NCBI GenBank assembly: GCA_002683575.1
Contig: NYTP01000126.1
Span: 1 to 38,028, forward strand
Direction of reading: 5' to 3'
DNA: 38,028 nucleotides
From: Bermanella sp.
Lineage (GTDB): Bacteria; Pseudomonadota; Gammaproteobacteria; Pseudomonadales; Oceanobacteraceae
The first letter of the stretch is position 1; each line of letters starts with the position of its first letter. The translations under genes were made by a program, and so were the position numbers. Under the pieces are notes generated by a model, which saw nothing but the letters and a program-made list of their open reading frames with translations, was not told the origin of the DNA and ran no database searches. This document shows, piece by piece, positions 28,909-31,538 of this stretch.

Positions 28909-29379
28909 TTAGCCCCTAAAATATTGGCGCACCGCCAATAGTAAGTTGTACCAAAGAGGCCAGATCAACGCACTGCCTACAGAAGGCCAAAGCAATGCGG
29001 TTTTACCTTGACCAATGACAATAGACTCACTCCAGAAACGCACTAACAAAAACAGTCCAATTAAAATAAACACCAAAAAGCTCTGCTGCAAAGGGTTGTA
29101 TAAGCGCATGCGCGAATGCAGCAATAAAACCAAGTACGCCATGATGCTCATGGCTAAAGCATTAAGGCCTAGCAACGAACCATGCAGTACATCTAACAAT
29201 AGCCCCATAAACAAGGCTAAAAAAATACCGGCTTTTGTTGGGCTCATCAGTACCCAAAAAATCACCGTCATGGCCACCCATTCAGGGCGAATGTAATCGA
29301 TCAACCTTGGCATAGGGAAAGCGGCCAAAACTAAAGCAAAAAAGAAGGTGGGTAAGATGACCGAATATGCGCGAATCAT
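28909..29379 (-). CDS. mreD: Rod shape-determining protein MreD
   Basis: Hydrophobic multi-TM protein between mreC and maf; ATGA overlap with the mreC stop. Confidence 0.9.
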   Translation of the reverse strand: MIRAYSVILPTFFFALVLAAFPMPRLIDYIRPEWVAMTVIFWVLMSPTKAGIFLALFMGLLLDVLHGSLLGLNALAMSIMAYLVLLLHSRMRLYNPLQQSFLVFILIGLFLLVRFWSESIVIGQGKTALLWPSVGSALIWPLWYNLLLAVRQYFRG

Positions 29380-30239
29380 GGCTGCACCTCCGCTTGAATT
29401 TGAGGTTCAGGTAACTGGCTATCTTTAGAAAAAACCAATAAAACATAACGAGAACGGTCAAGCTGGGCAGAGGGTTTTGCCGAGACAATCGCAAATGGCT
29501 CACCTGGGTCGTGTTCGACCTTAGTAATCGTGCCTACAGGGTAACCACGAGGATAACGGGAGCCCAAACCAGAGCTCACCAAAAGGTCCCCTTCTTTGAT
29601 ATCTGCCGTATCCGGCACATATATCAGCGCCAATTCATCTAATCGACCAGCCCCCACTGCAATAGCACGAATACCGTTACGATTTACCAGTACCGGAATC
29701 GCATGGTTACTATCCGCCAGCAATAGAACCCGACTGGTATACGGCAATACTTCTATCACCTGCCCCATTAAACCCTGGGCATCCAAAATAGGCTGACCGA
29801 CAAAAACACCGTGTTTTTCACCTTTATTAATGATGATGTGATGGGTATAGGGGTCCGGGTCCACACCAATTAATTCAGCTACCTGGACTTTATCATCGAG
29901 TAATTCAGAGGCGTTCAGCAGTTCACGTAAACGATTATTTTCAGCTCGCATGGAAACCATTTGCTGAACTTTTTGCTTTAAAACGAGGGATTCATTACGA
30001 AGGCGATCATTTTCTTCTTGAAGACTGGCTCGACTGAAAGCGGACTTTTCAGCCCAAACACCTAATTGACCTGGAATGCCAGACACCCATTGTACGGGCG
30101 TAATGAAATACCCCAGTAAACTGCGCACATGCTGAACAGGTTCTAAGTATTTATCGGCCGACATGAGCGCAATACAAATAAGCGCTGCCATAAGCATGCG
30201 AGCATTGATGGCTTGGCCAGAACTGAAAATACCTTTAAT
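29376..30239 (-). CDS. mreC: Rod shape-determining protein MreC, with a predicted ATT start codon
   Basis: TM plus coiled coil (EENDRLRNESLVLKQKVQQMVSMRAENNRLRELLNASE) and MreC beta domain. The track ORF starts at ATG 30197, but the conserved N-terminus (KGIFSSGQAINAR..) continues upstream in frame to ATT at 30239, preceded by SD TAAGGAG. Confidence 0.85.
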   Translation of the reverse strand: MKGIFSSGQAINARMLMAALICIALMSADKYLEPVQHVRSLLGYFITPVQWVSGIPGQLGVWAEKSAFSRASLQEENDRLRNESLVLKQKVQQMVSMRAENNRLRELLNASELLDDKVQVAELIGVDPDPYTHHIIINKGEKHGVFVGQPILDAQGLMGQVIEVLPYTSRVLLLADSNHAIPVLVNRNGIRAIAVGAGRLDELALIYVPDTADIKEGDLLVSSGLGSRYPRGYPVGTITKVEHDPGEPFAIVSAKPSAQLDRSRYVLLVFSKDSQLPEPQIQAEVQP

Positions 30240-30245
30240 GGTGTG

Positions 30246-30252
30246 CTCCTTA
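30246..30252 (-). promoter_or_regulatory. Shine-Dalgarno sequence for mreC
   Basis: TAAGGAG on the minus strand, 6 nt before the predicted ATT start. Confidence 0.8.
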
Positions 30253-30297
30253 AGACTTCTTTAATGGTTAGAAATCGTCTCATCGAGCTGTACGTAC

Positions 30298-30329
30298 AAA
30301 ATGCGTAACCCTCGCGGATTACGCATTTT
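30298..30329 (-). terminator. Hairpin / possible attenuator in the mreB-mreC intergenic region
   Basis: Perfect 11-bp inverted repeat AAAATGCGTAA / TTACGCATTTT with a 10-nt loop, between the mreB stop and mreC SD; short T-run (TTTTGT). Confidence 0.6.

Positions 30330-30367: not shown

Positions 30368-31538
<1,171 letters not shown>

Follow-up and report, generated by a model that had tools for sequence, protein, structure and literature searches.

It is almost certain that the mreC gene of a Bermanella species starts with an AUU, AUC or AUA codon (hereafter AUH, also when written ATT, ATC or ATA) located behind a strong Shine-Dalgarno (SD) sequence, as do the mreC genes of most of its relatives, Pseudomonas among them. 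The Bermanella gene, the only mreC in its genome, resides on the minus strand of the window, which is the whole 38,028-nucleotide stretch of DNA that was analyzed (contig NYTP01000126.1), within the gene order mreB-mreC-mreD (Table 1). Its reading frame satisfies the profile for MreC membership, scoring 200.3 bits against TIGR00219 (cut-off 92.75) and 152 bits against PF04085 (cut-off 28). Read directly on the minus strand, the junction runs TAA AGA AGT CTT AAG GAG CAC ACC ATT AAA GGT ATT TTC AGT TCT GGC CAA GCC ATC AAT GCT CGC ATG. A prior examination of the letters alone (the sequence-only reading) had proposed that mreC starts at the first ATT of this junction, that this codon lies six nucleotides after TAAGGAG, and that no ATG, GTG or TTG occurs in frame between the upstream stop and the ATG at 30197. 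The start itself is strongly supported by conservation across relatives, as described below. The six-nucleotide gap between TAAGGAG (30252-30246) and ATT (30239-30237) is seen on the minus strand, and the first canonical codon of the frame is indeed the ATG at 30197.

Table 1. Features of the mreC start region in the Bermanella window.
Feature	Position	Strand	Basis
mreB, upstream gene with ATG start, used as control	30368..31408	-	ORF list and profile match
14-bp perfect hairpin between mreB and mreC, AAAATGCGTAATCC-GCGA-GGGTTACGCATTTT	30298..30329	-	predicted fold
In-frame TAA stop 8 codons 5' of AUU, closing the frame upstream	30261..30263	-	direct reading
SD TAAGGAG, 6 nt 5' of AUU	30246..30252	-	AGGAG-type core kept in genus; SD pairing of AUH mreC genes far above background
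AUU start codon of mreC	30237..30239	-	ATT/ATC/ATA also in the aligned loci of genus, order and most of class
mreC coding sequence from AUU, 287 codons plus stop	29376..30239	-	TIGR00219 equivalog, 3.5e-59; PF04085
ATG, first canonical in-frame codon (codon 15), likely automatic but wrong start	30195..30197	-	not conserved even in genus
mreD, downstream gene overlapping the mreC stop	28909..29379	-	ORF list and profile match

Two other placements of the start can be dismissed from the local sequence. Extension of the frame further upstream is ruled out by the TAA that precedes ATT, and use of the second ATT (codon 4) would require an SD spacing of 15 nt and would exclude a conserved AAA/AAG at codon 2. 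The gene also meets the sequence criteria for an AUH-start gene of the infC type, namely an AUH codon without an in-frame canonical alternative, a properly spaced SD, and conservation of the codon class.

Alignment of 5' ends from relatives, which the sequence-only reading had put forward as a check, reveals that codon and SD are retained at the same place in 10 of 10 species of the genus. The nine further species, which include Bermanella-named assemblies, carry ATT (ATC in one case) and an AGGAG-type SD, followed by the codons for IKGIF. The absence of a KGIF-type N-terminus from close relatives, which would have refuted the proposed start, is thus not encountered. Base-by-base comparison within the genus reveals constraint in the SD region (-11 to -8) and none in the spacer; constraint then sets in exactly at the ATT codon, and from there through codon 5 the first and second positions are invariant while third positions vary. 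The SD peak at -11 to -8 is likewise present across AUH loci as a whole. The codon that a gene finder would likely pick further downstream shifts its position among these same species. A base error at the start codon might be suspected in a draft assembly of 158 contigs with 89 percent completeness, but ATT or ATC recurs in the independently assembled genomes of the nine other species and in most of the class. This explanation, which the earlier reading had asked to be checked, is already refuted, and we assign it a negligible chance.

To establish how far this start extends, we relied on an ungapped alignment of 199 mreC loci that were not selected for their start codons. At codon 1 these loci carry ATT (76), ATC (75), ATA (15), ATG (14), GTG (4), TTG (2) or some other codon (13). 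Because 166 of the 199 loci have AUH in an alignment that is blind to start codons, the recurrence of AUH at this position, as judged from the aligned DNA, is far above chance. When starts were called individually, with small shifts tolerated and 20 of 245 loci left out for want of a confident call, the remaining 225 comprised 175 AUH starts (83 ATT, 77 ATC and 15 ATA), 42 ATG starts and 8 GTG or TTG starts. The mreB genes of the same loci, used as a control, yield 111 ATG, 6 TTG and no AUH starts (0/117); mreD could not serve in the same manner, as its N-termini are too variable for alignment.

Within the order, 54 of 66 genera have AUH only and 2 are mixed. Elsewhere in the class AUH is found in 54 of 83 genera, a figure that probably falls short of the true share, since the E. 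coli-like clade was heavily represented in one of the draws. Among the named taxa with AUH starts are Marinobacter, Oceanospirillum sanctuarii, Halovibrio, Aestuariicella and Pseudomaricurvus. The codon does vary: on a single-gene protein tree there are approximately 21 changes between AUH and ATG/GTG/TTG, along with 45 changes within AUH. Outside the Gammaproteobacteria group, Burkholderiales-type mreC (MEYSPPPLFKQG) and alphaproteobacterial mreC mostly have ATG or other canonical starts. For mreC in Gammaproteobacteria AUH is the norm, and the E. coli-like clade has AUG accompanied by little or no SD. The bases flanking the codon (30240-30234 in the window) display a pattern of their own, in that pyrimidines, mostly C, precede AUH (C at -1 in 90 and at -2 in 103 of 175 loci) and a lysine codon (AAA or AAG) follows it in 153 of 175, so that the extended consensus is CC-AUH-AAR.

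The same loci bear on the possibility that mreC instead starts at a downstream canonical codon, as automatic annotation would have it (the ATG at 30197 or at 30191, which is codon 17, in Bermanella, and a GTG at codon 17 in P. aeruginosa). Such a start would give the longest canonical open reading frame, and a P. aeruginosa record is in fact annotated in this way. However, no SD precedes the codon, and its position is unconserved even in the genus. The sequence-only reading had likewise objected that the ATG at 30197 falls inside the N-terminal segment with no SD before it, which is borne out by the sequence. Among the 175 AUH loci, the first downstream canonical codon does not occur before codon index 14 in 149, and 25 have none before index 25, such that the membrane anchor would be cut. 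In the upstream direction, 157 of the 175 have no in-frame ATG, GTG or TTG before a stop, and 18 have one. Moreover, codons 2 through 5 (K-x-[LI]-F) are conserved and agree with the E. coli protein read from its ATG; the N-terminus of E. coli MreC quoted in the sequence-only reading (MKPIFSRGPSLQIRL, from ATG) proves to be correct. We consider it very improbable that a downstream codon is the true start.

Gene annotation has missed this start in at least one P. aeruginosa record. There the gene reads TAGGAG-N6-ATC-AAA (TAGGAGCGGATC-ATC-AAA-CCG-CTG-TTT, also given as CCTAGGAGCGGATC-ATC-AAA-CCG-CTG-TTT), the frame is closed a few codons upstream, and the annotated start is a GTG located 16 codons after the ATC. 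The loci of one family of the order match the solved P. aeruginosa MreC domain 6zlv at 85-94 percent and carry ATT or ATC. Records filed as plasmids also contain the gene. One of them, a linear 'plasmid' of 1131 bases from a P. aeruginosa isolate (CP123788.1), consists of the end of mreB together with mreC and probably derives from the chromosome; its mreC is annotated 16 codons short (positions 219-267). In Acinetobacter, large replicons deposited as plasmids hold the whole mreBCD-maf-rng run, with mreC annotated from GTG behind a weak AAGGA-type SD.

The strength of the SD differs between the two classes of start. Pairing energies with the anti-SD sequence have a median of -7.1 kcal/mol in 173 AUH loci versus a background of -2.2 kcal/mol (p 2e-28), where background is the stretch further upstream of the same loci. 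For the 42 AUG loci the corresponding values are -3.8 versus -2.9 kcal/mol (p 0.21). Among AUH loci 160 of 175 contain an SD core, as against 14 of 42 among AUG loci, and the SD of mreB shows no difference between the two groups of loci (p 0.17). The AUG loci belong mostly to one clade (E. coli, Shewanella-like genomes and others, as assigned by their N-termini), and Aeromonas mreC has ATG without an SD, but several isolated ATG lineages retain a good SD. When start codon and SD strength were compared in independent pairs, the association had the expected sign (about 2.4 to 0.4 pairs) and was not significant. Because one large AUG clade carries most of the contrast and the pairs do not reach significance, the apparent trade-off between AUH with an SD and AUG without one is a clade-level pattern in the sequences compared rather than a proven rule.

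From the observed codon, SD, frame and conservation, and from the observed contrast between AUH with an SD and AUG without one, we infer with good confidence that mreC is translated from its AUU behind a strong SD, and that this weak start has been selected as a throttle on the dose of MreC. A throttle on MreC relative to MreB is the most likely explanation, in which initiation with fMet, low output and selection on dose all remain inferences. In such a scheme, the strong SD six bases upstream would recruit initiation at AUU (30239-30237), which would be read by the initiator tRNA to yield a protein beginning fMet-Lys-Gly-Ile-Phe. AUH codons are weak starts against which IF3 discriminates, such that little MreC would be made per mreC message, and the AUG of mreB would yield much MreB from the same operon. 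It is known that starts other than ATG, GTG and TTG are repressed by IF3 (PMC5472188). MreC is needed in small numbers, an E. coli cell having approximately 180 copies; when overexpressed, it makes E. coli cells shorter and wider, an effect partly relieved by MreD (PMC7793260). Selection for the weak start would stem from the disturbance of cell shape that an excess of MreC causes. In the E. coli-like clade a similar outcome may be reached by means of AUG with little or no SD, and initiation of mreC looks deliberately weak in AUH and AUG genes alike.

Alternatively, the strong SD might offset the weakness of the codon, without any selection for low output. An ancestral AUH would then be a historical accident, tolerated since the SD restores expression. 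Suboptimal starts do tend to be accompanied by stronger SDs genome-wide (PMC5622118), and ATG replacements are found in scattered lineages. Yet non-AUG starts usually revert to AUG (for GUG to AUG, 4 percent of cases in comparisons of close relatives; PMC5622118), whereas AUH persists class-wide in mreC with ATG only one substitution away, and plain compensation does not require that the AUG clade be mostly without an SD. We therefore regard this explanation as unlikely, though it deserves more weight than a downstream start.

A somewhat better but still doubtful possibility is that AUH has been kept so that MreC synthesis follows IF3 and ribosome status, coupling wall elongation to translation capacity. 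Such a link between IF3 and MreC dosage, which the sequence-only reading had raised, is plausible by analogy with infC and with sigR (GTC start), but for mreC a response to IF3 is only an expectation drawn from the class of codon, without data of its own. In both codon class and SD arrangement mreC equals infC of the Bermanella genome, and Streptomyces SigR is controlled by IF3 repression of its GTC start, with infC fidelity mutants derepressing such starts (PMC5472188). Regulation of this kind is nonetheless dispensed with in the E. coli-like clade, which uses AUG, and a static throttle accounts for the same sequence. A constant low-level throttle on MreC is thus more economical than IF3-responsive dosage. 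Equally tentative is a broader hypothesis, that the rod-shape machinery of Gammaproteobacteria is dosed at mreC initiation. Most lineages would do so through an IF3-sensitive AUH behind a strong SD, the E. coli-like clade through an AUG that lacks one, and cell-wall elongation would in this way be coupled to the translation-initiation state.

To our knowledge, very few genes depend on AUU, AUC or AUA starts, and infC is the textbook case. The infC gene of the Bermanella genome, which served as a positive control, starts ATT AGA CGC behind ACGGAG as in other bacteria, and resembles mreC in its AUH start, clear SD, lack of a canonical alternative and wide conservation. It differs in that it encodes IF3, such that its AUU forms an autoregulatory loop, whereas mreC encodes a cell-shape protein and has no such loop. 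The ATT start of infC is autoregulatory in E. coli (PMC5472188) and is often misannotated (PMC5472188, PMC5559785). The sigR gene of Streptomyces also has a misannotated start, and through its non-ATG/GTG/TTG codon, GTC, one operon product, SigR, is kept at a lower level than its partner RsrA (PMC5472188). Unlike mreC, sigR uses GTC, belongs to Actinobacteria, encodes one member of a sigma/anti-sigma pair, and has an experimentally established IF3 effect.

The pcnB gene of E. coli has an AUU start and a product that is wanted at a low level, and in these respects it resembles mreC. The Bermanella pcnB frame, however, offers an ATG (MFKRLISKLKK), such that AUU is not evidently shared, and pcnB was dropped as a second positive control. 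We conclude that mreC is a putative further member, across the class, of the small set of AUH-start genes to which infC and pcnB belong, where initiation at AUH is inferred from conservation. No report of an AUU, AUC or AUA start for mreC was found in the open-access literature, a search that did not extend to subscription journals or database curation notes, and in a study of how start codons switch, changes from AUG or GUG to AUU were recorded only as single events (PMC5622118).

Such an addition would bring to the AUH-start genes an important cell-shape gene with class-level conservation that includes Pseudomonas, and the purpose of rare start codons could then be tested directly through a phenotype that is simple to score, namely cell width and length. 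Wherever the gene has been annotated from its first canonical codon, as happened in the P. aeruginosa record, the N-terminus given for MreC would need correction in its cytoplasmic segment and in part of its membrane anchor.

The orthologous gene of E. coli K-12, mreC (b3250), shares the K-P-I-F N-terminus, the operon order and an intergenic hairpin, and differs in having an ATG start without a recognizable SD. In Bermanella the hairpin between mreB and mreC is flanked by a 5' A-run and a 3' T-run, and its predicted fold is either terminator-like or 3'-end-protecting. It may add a transcriptional or stability step, for which there are no test data. Hairpins of unrelated sequence recur between mreB and mreC in relatives, and it seems to be the structure rather than the sequence that is kept.
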